A DNA stretch of 64,000 nt, taken from Gemmatimonas phototrophica (GTDB lineage: Bacteria > Gemmatimonadota > Gemmatimonadetes > Gemmatimonadales > Gemmatimonadaceae). A program made the position numbers and the translations under genes. Within the stretch, counting starts at the first letter, position 1, and each line of letters starts with the position of its first letter. Shown here piece after piece: positions 1,508-31,246 of this stretch. The notes below the pieces were generated by a model that did not search any database, was not told the origin of the DNA, and saw only the letters and a program-made list of their open reading frames with translations. The DNA is taken from assembly GCF_000695095.2 (NCBI RefSeq), contig NZ_CP011454.1, positions 2,604,001 through 2,668,000 on the forward strand, read 5' to 3'.

Positions 1508-2074
1508 TCAATCCTTGGCGCGATCGAGGTACTCACCGGTGTTCGGATTCACACGCACCCGCGTACCCTGTTCCACAAACTCCGGCACGTTCACCACCAC
1601 CCCGTTCTCCAGCTTCGCCGGCTTCGACGACGCCGTCTTGGTGGCGCCGCGCACCACCGGAGCGGTATCCACAATCTCGAAGACCATCGAGTTCGGCAGC
1701 TGAATGCCGATGGGACGACCGTTGTAATACTCGGCCAGAATCTTCAGCCCCGACTGCATCCAGGGAGCCGAGTCGCCGAGCGATTCCTCGTCGAGCTCGA
1801 TCTGGTCGTAGTTCTCCGCGTTCATGAAGTGGTACGAATCGCCGCCCTGGTACATGAACTCGAGTTCGTGCGTTTCCATGTCCGCCTTTACGATCGTGTC
1901 AGCGGCGCGGAAACGATGCTCGAAGTTCGACCCGGTGCGCAGGTTTTTGAGCTTCGCCTGCACCATGGCGCGCAGGTTGCCCGGCGTATGGTGACGGAAC
2001 TCAACAACACGGCACGGATCGCCTTCGAAGACGAGGACCATACCCCGGCGGATCTGCGTAGCGGAGAAAGCCAT
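1508..2074 (-). CDS. efp: Translation elongation factor P
   Basis: EF-P binds between the ribosomal P and E sites and relieves stalling at polyproline. The product is 188 aa, the usual length, with the three-domain order: N-terminal KOW-like domain (1-65), OB domain (about 67-130) and C-terminal OB domain ending in the signature RVRVNPNTGEYLDRAKD. The ATG at 2074 follows AGGTG at suitable spacing; the upstream in-frame ATG at 2125 adds 17 unrelated residues. Odd point: the tip of the modification loop, a Lys or Arg in well-studied EF-Ps, reads TPGNLRA here, so Asn33 sits at the modified position. No epmA, epmB or earP gene occurs in the window. Identity is secure; the unusual tip is seen directly. 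Confidence 0.95.
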   Translation of the reverse strand: MAFSATQIRRGMVLVFEGDPCRVVEFRHHTPGNLRAMVQAKLKNLRTGSNFEHRFRAADTIVKADMETHELEFMYQGGDSYHFMNAENYDQIELDEESLGDSAPWMQSGLKILAEYYNGRPIGIQLPNSMVFEIVDTAPVVRGATKTASSKPAKLENGVVVNVPEFVEQGTRVRVNPNTGEYLDRAKD

Positions 2075-2171
2075 ATCGACGACACCTGCAAGCAGGGAAA
2101 AATGCGCGGGAATGCGCGACGCCAACTGCGCGAAAAAAGTCAGCCTCGACCCCAGTGATGCGGGTCAAGTC

Positions 2172-2189
2172 GTACCAATAATCTGGTAC
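2172..2189. promoter_or_regulatory. Palindrome upstream of efp
   Basis: GTACCA and TGGTAC flank a 6-base spacer about 100 bases upstream of the efp start, between efp and the GDSL esterase. A TTGACC sequence on the minus strand just downstream could be a -35 element, but I see no convincing -10. It is a candidate operator only. Confidence 0.25.
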
Positions 2190-2245
2190 AGCCTCGGAAC
2201 CTAACCGACCTGATCGCTCGCTGGAAGTGACCGCAGGAGCTCGGC

Positions 2246-3049
2246 TTACGGCCGAGGCAAGGCCCGGAGCGCCGGCTCCAGCGCCCCCCACATCGTTTTG
2301 GCTACGACCTTCGACCCCTCCTCGTTGGGATGGATCCCGTCTCCCTGGTTGAGACGGGCCACGCCAGCCACCCGGTCCAGCAGGAAGGGCCAGAGTGGCA
2401 CCCCCGTCTCTTCGGCGGCCCGCACATACGCCGCGTGAAAGCGGGTGGTGTAGTCGCCCCCCAGGTTCGTGGGGGCCTCCATCTGCACCAGCGCGAGACG
2501 GGCGTCAGGCTGGGTACGGCGTACCGTTTCCACCAGCTTCACCAGATTGGCATACGTCGAATCGGGATCCACCCCCCGCAAGCCGTCGTTGGCACCCACC
2601 TCCAGCACCACCAGCGCGGCGGGCTGATCCAGCACCCATGCCGCCCGCCGAAGTGCCCCGGCCGACGTTTCGCCGCTCAGCCCCGCATTCACGACCCGCA
2701 CGGCCAGCCCAACCGAATCAGCCTTCGCCTGGAGCAACGCCGGATAGGCCTGCTCCGGGCTGAGCCCCAGCCCCGCCGTCAGACTCGTGCCCAGCAGGAC
2801 CACACGCGGCAACCCCGGTGCCGCGCGATTCCCCGCCGGTGGTGTATTCTCCGCCGTGGACGCGTTGGCCAGTGCCTGACGCGTCGATGAATCCCCAGTG
2901 GTGGCGGGCACGTTGGTTCCGGAGCGTCCGTTGGTCTCCTCGGAGCCACCACACGCCCCCAAGAACTGCAGGCTCGCCAGCCCAACGGCCGTCGCGGTCA
3001 ACACGGCGCGCCCTGACCGGACTTTTCCCCTTCTCTTCTGCAATCGCAT
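2246..3049 (-). CDS. GDSL-family arylesterase/lysophospholipase (TesA-like) lipoprotein
   Basis: A predicted envelope serine esterase of the SGNH/GDSL class. Signal peptide 1-32 ends in a lipobox, LGAC, with Cys33 as the lipidation site. SGNH blocks are in order: block I GTSL with the nucleophile Ser89, GAND at 152-155, and the catalytic pair in DGIHPN (Asp238, His240). The ATG at 3049 is chosen because it gives a standard lipoprotein leader; a TTG at 3073 would extend it by eight residues. It is divergent from an ABC ATPase/permease pair, the same grouping as E. coli tesA with ybbA-ybbP. The two start codons interlock within the hexamer GCATGC. Substrate is unknown; short acyl esters or lysolipids are typical. 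Confidence 0.85.
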   Translation of the reverse strand: MRLQKRRGKVRSGRAVLTATAVGLASLQFLGACGGSEETNGRSGTNVPATTGDSSTRQALANASTAENTPPAGNRAAPGLPRVVLLGTSLTAGLGLSPEQAYPALLQAKADSVGLAVRVVNAGLSGETSAGALRRAAWVLDQPAALVVLEVGANDGLRGVDPDSTYANLVKLVETVRRTQPDARLALVQMEAPTNLGGDYTTRFHAAYVRAAEETGVPLWPFLLDRVAGVARLNQGDGIHPNEEGSKVVAKTMWGALEPALRALPRP

Positions 3050-3776
3050 GCTCGTTGCCCGTGGGTTGACCAAGGAATATCAGAGCGGCACCCAGCCCCT
3101 GACAGTGCTGCGTGACGTGTCGTTCGATGTACCGGCCGGCGCCTTCGTCTCCATCGTCGGCCCCTCCGGCAGCGGCAAGACCACCCTGCTCGGGCTGCTC
3201 GCCGGGTTGGATACCCCGTCGCGCGGTTCAGTATCCCTGGATGGAATCGACTTCAGCCGCCTCGATGAAGATGCACGGGCGCGCCTGCGAGGAGAGAAAG
3301 TTGGGTTCGTCTTCCAGAGCTTTCAATTGATCCCCACGCTGACCGCACAGGAAAATGTGCAGGTGCCCCTCGAATTGGCGGGTGTCGTGGGCGTACGGGA
3401 AGCGGCCTCGCGCGCCCGTGACCTGCTCGCCCGCGTCGGACTCGGCGACCGCACGCACCACTTTCCCCAGCAGCTCTCGGGCGGTGAACAGCAGCGCGTC
3501 GCCCTCGCCCGCGCCTTCGTGAACGACCCCAAAATCCTCTTTGCCGACGAACCCACGGGCAATCTGGATGGCACCACCGGCGAACGCATCGTGGAACTGC
3601 TGCAGCAACTCAACCGGGAACGCGGCTGCACCATCGTGCTGGTCACGCACGATGCCAGCCTCGCGGCACGTACGCAGCGCACCATCCGCCTGCGCGACGG
3701 CGTCATCGTGGAAGACATCTACCACGAGCCGTCGGCTGCCAGCGACGCCATTCCGTCGGCGGCCCCCTCCGCATGA
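3048..3776 (+). CDS. ABC transporter ATP-binding protein (YbbA/LolD family)
   Basis: Cytoplasmic ATPase subunit of an FtsX/MacB-type (type VII) ABC complex. At 242 aa it has Walker A GPSGSGKTT (38-46), Q-loop Gln90, signature LSGGEQQR (143-150), Walker B ILFADEP (163-169) and switch His201. The stop overlaps the start of the next gene by ATGA, so ATPase and permease are translationally coupled. The ATG at 3048 overlaps, on the opposite strand, the ATG of the GDSL lipoprotein; no clear Shine-Dalgarno precedes it, so the mRNA may be leaderless. The 20-residue C-terminal tail after the H-loop region is Ala/Pro/Ser-rich and probably disordered. Family is certain; substrate is unknown. Confidence 0.92.
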   Translation: MLVARGLTKEYQSGTQPLTVLRDVSFDVPAGAFVSIVGPSGSGKTTLLGLLAGLDTPSRGSVSLDGIDFSRLDEDARARLRGEKVGFVFQSFQLIPTLTAQENVQVPLELAGVVGVREAASRARDLLARVGLGDRTHHFPQQLSGGEQQRVALARAFVNDPKILFADEPTGNLDGTTGERIVELLQQLNRERGCTIVLVTHDASLAARTQRTIRLRDGVIVEDIYHEPSAASDAIPSAAPSA

Positions 3777-6556
3777 CCACTCAGGCTCTGCTCCGCCTCG
3801 CTTGGCGCGAGAGTCGCACGGCACGTCGTCGGCTCGCGCTGTACATGTCGAGCATTGCGTTCGGAGTGGCCGCGCTGGTGGCCATCGATTCCTTTGCCGG
3901 CAACGTGACGCGCTCCATCCGCGAACAGTCGCGCACCCTGCTGGGTGGCGACATGGCGCTCACCGCCCGGGCCACCTTTCCGGCCGTGGTGGACACGCTC
4001 GTGGACTCGCTGCGCGCCCAGCAGATTCCGGCCGCGCGCGTGACCACCTTCGCGTCCATGGCGCTGGCGGAACCGTCCGGCGGCACGCGTCTCGTGCAGG
4101 TCCGCGCCGTATCACCTGGCTACCCGTTCTACGGCGCCATCGAAACCGAACCGGCCAATGGCTGGTCACGGGTGCACGACGACAGCGTCGTGTTCGTGGA
4201 TCCGTCGCTGCTCATTGCCCTCGAGGCCAACGTTGGCGACGTCCTCAAGCTTGGCCAGCAGACGTTCCGCATTGGTGGCACCCTGGGCAATGTACCGGGC
4301 GACGCCGGCATCACGTCGGTGATTGGGCCACGCGTGTATGTCTCCGACCGCTGGTTGGAGAAGATGGGGCTGCTCAAGTTCGGCAGCCGCGCTGAATACG
4401 AGATGGTGTTGCGGCTGCCGCCAAATCAGGCCACGCCTCAGGGCGCGGCTCAGGTAGCCAAGGCGCTGCGCCGTCGCATTGATCCGGTGGAGGCGGCGCG
4501 ACTGGAAGCGCAAGAAGCCTCCGGCGAGGCCGAGCGCTCCGGCCCGGGCGGCGAAGGCGACGACCCCGAACGCGATACCGTACGCGTGCTGCCGGCGGCG
4601 ACGACCGACAGCACCAGCCCCGACTCCGCCTCGGGGGCGAAGGCCGCCACCACCGCCGTCGCGCCGCAATCCATAGCCCCTCCACGCACCCGGGTTCGGG
4701 TCCGGACGGTCGCCGACACCGAGCGCGACTTCACTGAAGCCGTCGCGCGCCTGGCCGACTTTCTCAGCATCATTGGCCTCATTGCCCTCCTGCTGGGTGG
4801 CATCGGCGTGGCCAGTGGCGTCAACGCGTTTGTGTCGGCGAAGATTGATACCGTTGCGGTGCTCCGCTGCCTCGGGGCCACCAGCCGCCAGGTCCTTGCC
4901 CTGTACGTGGTGCAAGCCGGGGCCATGGGGCTGGTAGGAGCGACGGCGGGTGCAGCTCTGGGCGTCGCGATCCAGTTCCTTCTGCCTCAGGTCATGGGAG
5001 AGTTCCTGCCCGTGGACGTGGCCATCATGCTTGAGCCACGACCGTTGCTGCTGGGGCTCGCCACTGGCGTGTGGGTATCACTCGTGTTTGCGCTGCGGCC
5101 GCTGCTCGCGCTGCGACGGGTCTCTCCGTTGCAGGCCATTCGCCGAAACGCCGATCCCGCGGCGCTGCCCAGTGAGTGGAAGGACCCGGCGCGCCTGGTG
5201 GTGGATGCACTGTTGATCGGCAGCATCGTTGCGATTGTGATGTCGCGCATTGAGTCGGTGCGCGATGGTCTCGCCATGACGGGAGGCATTGTGGGCGTGG
5301 TGGCCATCCTGTGGCTCGCCGCCACGGCGCTCATCGCCGTGGCCCGTCGGACGACCCGTCCGTCCTGGCCGTTCCCGCTGCGCCAGGGCATTTCCAACCT
5401 GCACCGCCCGGCCAATCAAACGCGGGCCGTCACCTTGGCGCTGGGCTTCGGTGCGTTCCTGCTCAGCACCGTGTATCTCGTGCAGGCCAATCTGCTGGGG
5501 CGCGTGCAGACCACCGCTGATGCCGCGGCCGGCAACCTGCTGCTCTTCGATGTGCAGGACGATCAGGCCGCGCCGCTCGATTCCATGTTGCGCGTGCGCC
5601 AGCATCCCATTGTGCAACAGACGCCCATTGTGACGATGCGCATTGAGGCGATCAACGGCGTGTCAGTCACCAAAATGCAGGCCGATACGTCGGTGCGGCG
5701 CGCCGGGTGGGTCCTGCGGCGCGAGTACCGGTCCACGTACCGTCAGGAGATGCAGGCGTCGGAGAAGTTGATCACTGGCTCGTGGTTTCCGGATTCGTCG
5801 CAGCGTCGTGAAGCGCGGGCGGCCAATCCGGATCTCCCCTACCTGCTCTCACTCGAGACGGGACTGGCCGGCGACATGGGCGTGACGATTGGCGACACCA
5901 TCGTGTGGAACGTCCAGGGCGTCCCGGTCACAACGGTGCTGGCCAACACGCGCGAAGTGAACTGGGGCCGCTTCGAAGCCAACTTCTTTGCGGTGTTCGA
6001 GCCAGCGGCGTTGCGCCGAGCCCCGCAGCAATACGTAATCGTGGCCAACGTGCCGGCGGGACAGCCACTCGCCGCCATGCAACGGGATGTGGTGCGACGG
6101 TACCCGAATGTGTCCAGCCTGGATCTCACGCTGGTGAAACAGACGATCGGCGCCATCATCGATCGGGTGACGCTGGCCATCCGCTTCCTTGGGCTCTTCT
6201 CGCTTGCCATGGGTGTGCCAGTGCTGTTCAGTGCAGTGGCCGCCACCCGGCGTGCGCGTCTGCGCGAAGGTGTGCTGTTGCGTACATTGGGCGCGTCGCG
6301 GGCCCAGGTGGCGCGTGTGCTGCTGGCCGAATACGGGGCCCTCGGAGCGCTCGGCGCCCTCACGGGCATGGTACTCTCCTTTGGCGGCGCGTGGGCCATC
6401 ACACGCTTCGTATTCGACGACCCGTTCGACCCGGCCGTGGGCCCAACGCTGCTGATCGCGGCCGGCATGCTGCTGCTGACCATGACGATCGGTTTGCTCA
6501 CCTCGCGCGATGTCTATCGCGAAACGCCCATGATGGCGATTCGGGAACCGGGATAA
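3773..6556 (+). CDS. FtsX-like ABC permease (YbbP family)
   Basis: The membrane partner of the preceding ATPase. At 927 aa it is a duplicated FtsX/MacB-core permease: a first membrane segment near residues 20-40, a large periplasmic domain, a membrane bundle around 325-450, further segments near 475-530, a second core starting near 545, a second periplasmic domain, and a last bundle at about 805-915. This matches the YbbP architecture of two four-helix units. Residues about 240-310 form a Ser/Thr/Ala/Pro- and acid-rich low-complexity insert just before the first helix bundle, which is unusual. It overlaps the ATPase gene by 4 bases. Complexes of this class usually perform mechanotransmission or lipid/lipoprotein handling; the paired esterase suggests a lipid theme (inference). 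Confidence 0.88.
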   Translation: MTTQALLRLAWRESRTARRRLALYMSSIAFGVAALVAIDSFAGNVTRSIREQSRTLLGGDMALTARATFPAVVDTLVDSLRAQQIPAARVTTFASMALAEPSGGTRLVQVRAVSPGYPFYGAIETEPANGWSRVHDDSVVFVDPSLLIALEANVGDVLKLGQQTFRIGGTLGNVPGDAGITSVIGPRVYVSDRWLEKMGLLKFGSRAEYEMVLRLPPNQATPQGAAQVAKALRRRIDPVEAARLEAQEASGEAERSGPGGEGDDPERDTVRVLPAATTDSTSPDSASGAKAATTAVAPQSIAPPRTRVRVRTVADTERDFTEAVARLADFLSIIGLIALLLGGIGVASGVNAFVSAKIDTVAVLRCLGATSRQVLALYVVQAGAMGLVGATAGAALGVAIQFLLPQVMGEFLPVDVAIMLEPRPLLLGLATGVWVSLVFALRPLLALRRVSPLQAIRRNADPAALPSEWKDPARLVVDALLIGSIVAIVMSRIESVRDGLAMTGGIVGVVAILWLAATALIAVARRTTRPSWPFPLRQGISNLHRPANQTRAVTLALGFGAFLLSTVYLVQANLLGRVQTTADAAAGNLLLFDVQDDQAAPLDSMLRVRQHPIVQQTPIVTMRIEAINGVSVTKMQADTSVRRAGWVLRREYRSTYRQEMQASEKLITGSWFPDSSQRREARAANPDLPYLLSLETGLAGDMGVTIGDTIVWNVQGVPVTTVLANTREVNWGRFEANFFAVFEPAALRRAPQQYVIVANVPAGQPLAAMQRDVVRRYPNVSSLDLTLVKQTIGAIIDRVTLAIRFLGLFSLAMGVPVLFSAVAATRRARLREGVLLRTLGASRAQVARVLLAEYGALGALGALTGMVLSFGGAWAITRFVFDDPFDPAVGPTLLIAAGMLLLTMTIGLLTSRDVYRETPMMAIREPG

Positions 6557-30259: not shown

Positions 30260-31246
30260 TTACTGCCCCAACACGATGGCAAACACGAGCGGCGCTACGA
30301 TGCTGGCGTCCGACTCGATGATGAACTTGGGCGTATCGATGGCCAGTTTGCCCCACGTGATCTTTTCGTTCGGCACGGCGCCGGAGTACGACCCGTACGA
30401 CGTGGTGGAGTCGCTGATCTGACAGAAGTAACCCCAAAGTGGCACTTCCGTACGCCCAAGATCCTGGTGCAGCATGGGCACCACGCAAATGGGGAAGTCG
30501 CCCGCGATACCACCGCCGATCTGGAAGAAGCCGATCGTGGAGGTCTTGGTCATCTCGGTGTAGAGCTCGGCGAGATACATCATGTACTCAATGCCGCTCC
30601 TGACCGTATGGACATTTTTGATGTCCCCTTCCATGCAGTGACCGGCAAAGATGTTGCCGTTCGTGCTGTCTTCCCACCCCGGCACGATGATCGGGATGTT
30701 CTTTTCTGCCGCGGCCACCATCCAGGAGTCCTTCGGATCGATCTGGTAGAACTCCTTGAGCTTCCCGCTACGCAGAATGCGGTACATGAACTCGTGCGGG
30801 AAATACCGCTCACCTGCCTGATCGGCCGCCTGCCACTCTTCCAGCACTGCTTTTTCAATGCGCCGGATGGCTTCAGCCTCCGGAATGCACGTATCGGTGA
30901 CGCGATTGAAATGCTGATCAAGCAGCTTCTGCTCGTCTTCCGGCGTCAGGTCACGATAATTCGGCACCCGCGCGTAGTGGTCGTGCGCGACGAGGTTGTA
31001 AATGTCTTCCTCGAGATTCGCCCCCGTGCACGTAATGGCGTGCACCTTGTCCTGACGGATCATCTCGGCCAGCGAGATACCCAGCTCCGCGGTGCTCATG
31101 GCGCCGGCGAGGGTCACCATCATTTTGCCACCCTTGTCGAGGTGGCTGACATACGCGTCGGCCGCATCAATAAGCGCCGCGGCGTTGAAGTGACGATAGT
31201 TGTGACGAAGAAACGCCGTTACGGGCGCCGAAGTAGACTGAGCCAT
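30260..31246 (-). CDS. Deoxyhypusine synthase-like protein
   Basis: A 328-aa NAD-dependent aminobutyl-transferase family member. The Rossmann-type core shows MMVTLAGAMSTAELG near 42-56, CTGANLEEDIYNLV, the mid motif IIVPGWEDSTNGNIFAG, and the C-terminal ITWGKLAID where Lys300 corresponds to the catalytic lysine of eukaryotic DHS, followed by ESDASIVAPLVFA. Bacteria have no eIF5A, and bacterial members are known or proposed to act in polyamine chemistry (homospermidine-type reactions). The ATG at 31246 is well placed. It is monocistronic, between a LysM protein (convergent) and a TPR protein. The exact reaction here is not determinable from sequence. Confidence 0.88.
   Translation of the reverse strand: MAQSTSAPVTAFLRHNYRHFNAAALIDAADAYVSHLDKGGKMMVTLAGAMSTAELGISLAEMIRQDKVHAITCTGANLEEDIYNLVAHDHYARVPNYRDLTPEDEQKLLDQHFNRVTDTCIPEAEAIRRIEKAVLEEWQAADQAGERYFPHEFMYRILRSGKLKEFYQIDPKDSWMVAAAEKNIPIIVPGWEDSTNGNIFAGHCMEGDIKNVHTVRSGIEYMMYLAELYTEMTKTSTIGFFQIGGGIAGDFPICVVPMLHQDLGRTEVPLWGYFCQISDSTTSYGSYSGAVPNEKITWGKLAIDTPKFIIESDASIVAPLVFAIVLGQ

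Follow-up and report, generated by a model that had tools for sequence, protein, structure and literature searches.

Elongation factor P (EF-P) with asparagine at the tip of the β3/β4 loop constitutes a defined and widespread loop class in which the tip, tip+1 and tip+2 residues switch jointly and for which a testable mechanism can be proposed. The action of EF-P is commonly attributed to a charged tip residue that is modified. Characterized EF-Ps carry either Lys at this position, which is β-lysylated or aminopentanolylated, or Arg, which is rhamnosylated. Here we describe a large, multi-phylum family, often the sole EF-P of its genome, that has neither Lys nor Arg at the tip. The starting point was a 64,000 nucleotide stretch of the Gemmatimonas phototrophica genome (contig NZ_CP011454.1, positions 2,604,001 to 2,668,000), termed the window below; coordinates refer to it.

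The efp gene is located at 1508-2074 on the minus strand and codes for 188 amino acids plus a stop. The product has three domains, a KOW-like N domain and two OB domains. It scored 214.7 bits against TIGR00038 (cut-off 185.8) and also passed NF001810; PF08207, PF01132 and PF09285, the three EF-P domains of Pfam, were all above cut-off. In a phmmer search against the PDB it aligned over its full length with solved EF-Ps. An AlphaFold2 model computed from 54 input sequences had a mean pLDDT of 90.9; its top PDB matches in Foldseek were EF-Ps from Thermus, Acinetobacter, E. coli and others (TMq 0.87 for 1ueb and 0.88 for 6enj). In the predicted structure strands 19-29 and 37-44 flank a loop of residues 30-36 with Asn33 in its middle. 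With these bounds, taken from the predicted structure and the PDB alignments, the loop TPGNLRA is encoded at 1967-1987 on the minus strand (ACG CCG GGC AAC CTG CGC GCC). The AAC codon of Asn33 is at 1976-1978 and the CGC codon of Arg35, the tip+2 residue, at 1970-1972, both on the minus strand. Directly downstream of efp and on the same strand are seven tRNA genes (Thr, Leu, Asp, Glu, Glu, Trp, His; 471-1367).

In the PDB alignments 'PGNlrA' of the window protein paired with 'PGKgqA' of E. coli. Because the loop aligned without a gap, Asn33 corresponds to E. coli Lys34. An earlier note, made from the window sequence, had claimed an EF-P with Asn at the loop tip. This was borne out: the open reading frame translates as it said, and the alignment which it had proposed as a check of the loop register placed no Lys or Arg at the tip. 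A Lys or Arg hidden by gap placement was ruled out by the gap-free alignments and by the predicted structure, which centres Asn33. The note had further named a second, canonical efp as a finding that would speak against it. The host genome, a single contig of 4,716,552 bases and 99.96% complete, yielded one EF-P match by tblastn (E ≤ 10) and one by Pfam EFP_N; thus a second canonical gene was ruled out as well.

The Pfam search returned EFP_N matches in 142 of 150 Gemmatimonadota genomes. Loops were extracted by phmmer and MAFFT. Among the matches listed, 150 Gemmatimonadota loci were read (at least one further match lies outside this set); 85 had TPGNLRA and 65 a KPGKG-type loop. By genome, 78 had the Asn type only, 57 the Lys type only and seven had both (n = 142). 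TPGNLRA was invariant in all 85 Asn-type loci and was encoded by 64 different 21-base strings. Therefore, the residues are conserved and not the DNA. The recurrence of the same seven residues at 85/150 loci, in that many different coding strings, also ruled out that Asn33 is due to a sequencing error or to chance. In the host's own family the Asn loop was the sole type (47 of 47 genomes with an EF-P read), and it was the main type in three further families (coded f2, f3 and f4); elsewhere in the phylum the Lys loop was found. The seven genomes which possess both types (G008, G012, G030, G043, G065, G133 and G141) are natural material for a comparison of Asn and Lys types within one cell.

Beyond this phylum, Asn loops turned up among named genomes in records labelled Acidobacteria, Planctomycetales, Deltaproteobacteria, Sumerlaeaceae, Eisenbacteria and Riflebacteria. 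Asn tips were present at 63 of the 80 named-genome loci, a share that is inflated because TPGN was part of the pattern by which these loci were recruited. From Planctomycetota and Acidobacteriota loci were drawn separately, in each phylum the 30 best-scoring and 20 hand-picked ones (50 of about 70 matches listed); 16/50 and 21/50 of them had Asn tips, respectively. Besides these two phyla, the Asn loop was present in Myxococcota and others. One record titled Betaproteobacteria (L237) has an EF-P that sits in an acidobacterial clade; probably it is a mislabelled metagenome bin. A tblastn search for efp on plasmids gave 84 records, all below 60% identity, and was uninformative.

The tip residue does not change alone. 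A set of 331 aligned rows contained 321 distinct sequences, with Asn (176), Lys (135), Arg (7) or other residues (3) at the tip. Gly at tip+1 was present in all Lys loops (135/135) and all Arg loops (7/7), but in none of the 176 Asn loops. Arg at tip+2 was present in 175/176 Asn loops versus 7/135 Lys loops. The residue following the Asn tip was Leu, Trp or Lys, once Arg (KIANRRA); the sole Asn loop without Arg at tip+2 was TPGNLPA (L380). The locus with KIANRRA (L373) has its Asn tip without the preceding Pro-Gly. Asn and Lys codons differ by a single base, yet the neighbouring residues shift with the tip. The Asn-loop switch is all-or-none: when the tip changes, so do tip+1 and tip+2.

The relatedness of the sequences was considered on a tree of 183 rows built without the loop columns. 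This tree required 20 changes of the Asn label, at least six of them forced by well-supported branches. The six independent Asn/non-Asn pairs on these branches changed in the same direction at tip+2 in 5.5 and at tip+1 in 5.9 cases (averages) and, apart from ties, never in the opposite direction (median p 0.031, n = 6; like all EF-P trees used here this was a quick one, and the data were already known when the loops were tested). A tree of 125 rows offered four such pairs only, with which significance is unreachable. The same tree rejected a single Asn-loop clade (p-AU 0.0001). Because the Asn loops do not form one clade, loops have been swapped repeatedly, and Asn and Lys loops look like alternative solutions which replaced one another several times. 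Among Lys tips the variant PGKGP was found in 9/28 cases where they are interleaved with Asn tips versus 1/57 in a separate Lys clade (p 0.00013, a post hoc test).

How does an EF-P with such a loop operate? No other EF-P was found in the host genome, and proline pairs are common: of the 48 window ORFs from a rough call, 32 contain PP and 15 a strong stall motif (PP with P, G, W, D or N as the next residue). Asn-loop EF-Ps are also alone in 78 of the 142 Gemmatimonadota genomes. Therefore, the general EF-P job is to be expected, i.e. the protein would enter the ribosomal E site and aid proline-rich peptides through the peptidyl-transferase centre. Since the residue after the tip is changed in every Asn loop and tip+2 is Arg in nearly all of them, the protein probably does its work with no tip modification of the usual kind. 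Our best reading, to which we give slightly better than an even chance, is that this EF-P stays unmodified, with the turn shaped by Asn33 and the positive charge provided by Arg35. The pair Gly-Asn is favoured in turns. In a loop TPGN[L/W/K]R[A/G], Gly32-Asn33 would form a tight turn, with Asn33 in a structural role and not as a modification site. The bulky residue 34 may stiffen the loop, and unmodified Arg35 may be the main source of the charge that other EF-Ps obtain from a modified Lys or Arg; a tip-modifying enzyme would then be unnecessary. Stiffening or lengthening of the loop can indeed let EF-P work without modification (PMC11611912). The enrichment of PGKGP near Asn loops would fit lineages which run EF-P without tip modification. 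For actinobacteria, the PGKGP loop of EF-P from Corynebacterium glutamicum (PDB 6s8z) was reportedly found by Pinheiro in 2020 to be functional without modification.

The enzymes which modify EF-P tips in other bacteria were searched for. EarP was found in none of the 150 Gemmatimonadota genomes and likewise in none of the 14 control genomes of that search; as a positive control the EarP model matched in 8 of 60 Pseudomonadota. EpmA was found above the curated cut-off in none of the 150 genomes, with sub-threshold matches in every one. The best match to the EpmA model in the host genome reached 240.4 bits (cut-off 286.9) and is inside an open frame of 571 amino acids, which we read as a lysyl-tRNA synthetase. 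EpmB had no match in the host genome at E ≤ 0.001, while controls including E. coli matched. The claim of the earlier note that no characterized tip modification fits therefore held, by the Asn tip itself and by the searches for EarP, EpmA and EpmB.

Asn33 or Arg35 might instead be modified by an enzyme of another type, e.g. a glycosyltransferase unlike EarP. More than half of the bacteria are devoid of a known EF-P modification enzyme (PMC6544042), and the invariance of the loop in the 85 Asn-type Gemmatimonadota loci is what recognition by an enzyme would require; in this respect strict conservation would be expected under either explanation and counts against our preferred reading. On the other hand, in 80 efp neighbourhoods (up to 4 kb on each side, ORFs clustered) no recurring gene was clearly tied to modification across phyla. 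The recurring clusters were mostly efp itself, besides genes confined to one lineage, e.g. an ABC transporter in Gemmatimonadaceae. Position 34 can be Leu, Trp or Lys, a variation that would be unusual beside a modification site. N-linked glycosylation at Asn33 was ruled out since the sequon is missing (N-L-R), and this also argues against such an enzyme. We regard this alternative as unlikely.

The window contains a second gene of interest, a homologue of deoxyhypusine synthase (DHS; Pfam DS, 328 amino acids, 30260-31246, minus strand), about 28 kb from efp and a candidate partner of the Asn loop. The Pfam DS score was 139.1 bits. The protein remained under all NCBI DHS-type cut-offs, i.e. 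those for DHS, homospermidine synthases and bis-guanidino-azanonane synthases (at best 106.7 versus 450 bits). It has kept the WGK motif with the catalytic lysine and has GDF in place of KHH of human DHS; it is a DHS relative of an unnamed subfamily. The earlier note was right about the tip residue and the misfit of known modifications; it had missed this homologue as well as the switch of the whole loop and Arg35 as a candidate source of the missing positive charge.

DHS homologues of any kind were counted at E < 1e-10 in Planctomycetota and Acidobacteriota and at E ≤ 0.001 elsewhere. They were present in 83/85 Asn-bearing versus 48/57 Lys-only Gemmatimonadota genomes, in 16/16 Asn versus 13/32 other Planctomycetota genomes and in 20/21 Asn versus 14/29 other Acidobacteriota genomes. 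In the 50 genomes of named loci, tallied by hand for 50 of the 80, the count was 35/38 with Asn tips versus 5/12 others (Fisher p 0.0007). These raw associations are strong; they are weaker once relatedness on the EF-P tree is corrected for. Over all branches, 20 pairs yielded about 6.1 changes in the same direction, 0.1 in the opposite direction and 13.8 without difference (median p 0.031). On well-supported branches alone there were six pairs, of which 1.6 went the same way, 0.4 went the opposite way and 4.0 were without difference; this was not significant. According to subtypes assigned from bit-score bands, the DHS homologues are of several distinct sequence types and not of a single partner type. 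At 11 DHS loci no efp was found in the neighbourhood, and an agmatinase was not flagged there by a motif scan. In a Gemmatimonadota relative (L246) a DHS homologue of the window type adjoins a gene that resembles a BipA/TypA-type GTPase, as judged by the first residues (1947-3785 and 4032-5021 of that locus).

Such a DHS homologue might serve the Asn loop by attaching a group of the aminobutyl type to N-x-R, or it might supply a polyamine, e.g. homospermidine, that acts non-covalently. The former would be a new chemistry as no lysine is available. The proximity to efp, the retained WGK motif, the co-occurrence and the all-branch pairs argue in this direction, and the presence of DHS-like proteins alongside Lys-tip or Asn-tip EF-Ps has been noted before (Volkwein 2019, PMC6544042). 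The co-occurrence is not explained by our preferred reading and has to be counted against it. Conversely, most Lys-loop Gemmatimonadota also have a DHS homologue, several subfamilies are involved, the score of the window protein falls well short of all DHS-type cut-offs, and significance was lost on supported branches. An amide or a guanidine group is a poor acceptor for DHS chemistry. SpeY, a DHS homologue from bacteria, produces homospermidine and is described as having no part in deoxyhypusine formation (PMC9992855; PMC10407285), and in Thermus an enzyme of the DHS kind couples agmatine (PMC10981699). Because the association weakens with relatedness, because several subtypes exist and because the published enzymes make homospermidine or couple agmatine, the DHS link was kept as a rival and not as the answer; that the homologue serves the loop is in our view decidedly unlikely. 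That the Asn-x-Arg loop actually depends on it, either by modification of a non-lysine residue or by a homospermidine-type polyamine beside the loop as a non-covalent cation substitute, appears very unlikely. If it were true, EF-P activation would share an enzyme family with the hypusination of eIF5A, yet proceed without a lysine.

Does the Asn loop operate at all? A single K34N change renders E. coli EF-P inactive (PMC6544042). This counts against an unmodified, active Asn loop, though Gly35-Gln36 were kept in this mutant, and it would be expected if Asn-loop EF-Ps were weak or specialized and most polyproline rescue were left to other proteins, e.g. the ABC-F ATPases YfmR/Uup. ABC-F proteins are tied to the relief of ribosome stalling alongside EF-P (PMC11381351). 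Yet the loop is under strong purifying selection, evident from the 64 synonymous versions of one heptapeptide, and the Asn-loop protein is kept as the only EF-P in more than half of the Gemmatimonadota genomes (78/142). We consider a weak or specialized factor highly improbable. An unmodified loop with Asn33 in the turn and Arg35 as charge remains our preferred reading, against which TPGNLPA, the one Asn loop lacking Arg at tip+2, must also be held.

An Asn tip as such is not new because it was reported in 2019: Asn tips accounted for 2.23% of 1166 EF-Ps, Pro stood at tip-2 in every case, and a mechanism was not given (Volkwein 2019, PMC6544042). A paper from 2024 repeats the occurrence (PMC11611912). 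The window protein is of this kind, with Asn34 and Pro32 in E. coli numbering. The parts of the 2019 paper considered here contain the share and the single K34N test, without mention of a switch at tip+1 and tip+2 (PMC6544042). A search of freely accessible main texts by loop strings, which matched two unrelated papers, and by the topic of Asn tips found no description of this switch either. The joint change turns the Asn tip from a curiosity into a direct test, in which the whole loop is moved and not one residue. Should the unmodified loop work, the need for charge would be separated from the need for modification, and a modification-free EF-P would be at hand for cell-free translation.

The window protein was compared with other EF-P types. 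With the Lys-type EF-P of E. coli, β-lysylated by EpmA/EpmB, it has in common the whole fold, a loop length of seven, Pro at tip-2 and Gly at tip-1; it differs by Asn instead of Lys at the tip, by Leu, Trp or Lys instead of Gly at tip+1 in Asn loops, by Arg at tip+2 and by the failure to find EpmA/EpmB. The fold and a conserved loop Arg are shared with the Arg-type EF-Ps rhamnosylated by EarP; however, this Arg is at tip+2 and not at the tip, Pro31 is present at tip-2, and EarP was not found. The YmfI type of B. subtilis, which is aminopentanolylated, has a Lys tip where the window protein has Asn33. Likewise, the acceptor Lys of the hypusine system at the loop tip is absent. EfpL (YeiP) functions with an unmodified loop Arg (PMC11611912), as we propose for the window EF-P. 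Yet the EfpL loop is longer than seven residues and Arg is its tip, and with a seven-residue loop the window protein attained 134.8 bits compared to a cut-off of 216. The PGKGP-type EF-P of Corynebacterium glutamicum is similar in its probable modification-free strategy, and on the tree its loop type is interspersed with Asn loops, but Lys is kept at its tip.

A few loops deviated from the major types. One locus (L357) had a Met tip in the loop RTGMKKP. Three acidobacterial loci (L369, L371 and L379) formed an Arg-tip group with the loop TQGRGYA. Finally, a planctomycete genome (G176; L350 and L359) encodes two paralogues, an EF-P of the Asn-loop type and an EfpL-like one with the longer loop TPSARGAA.
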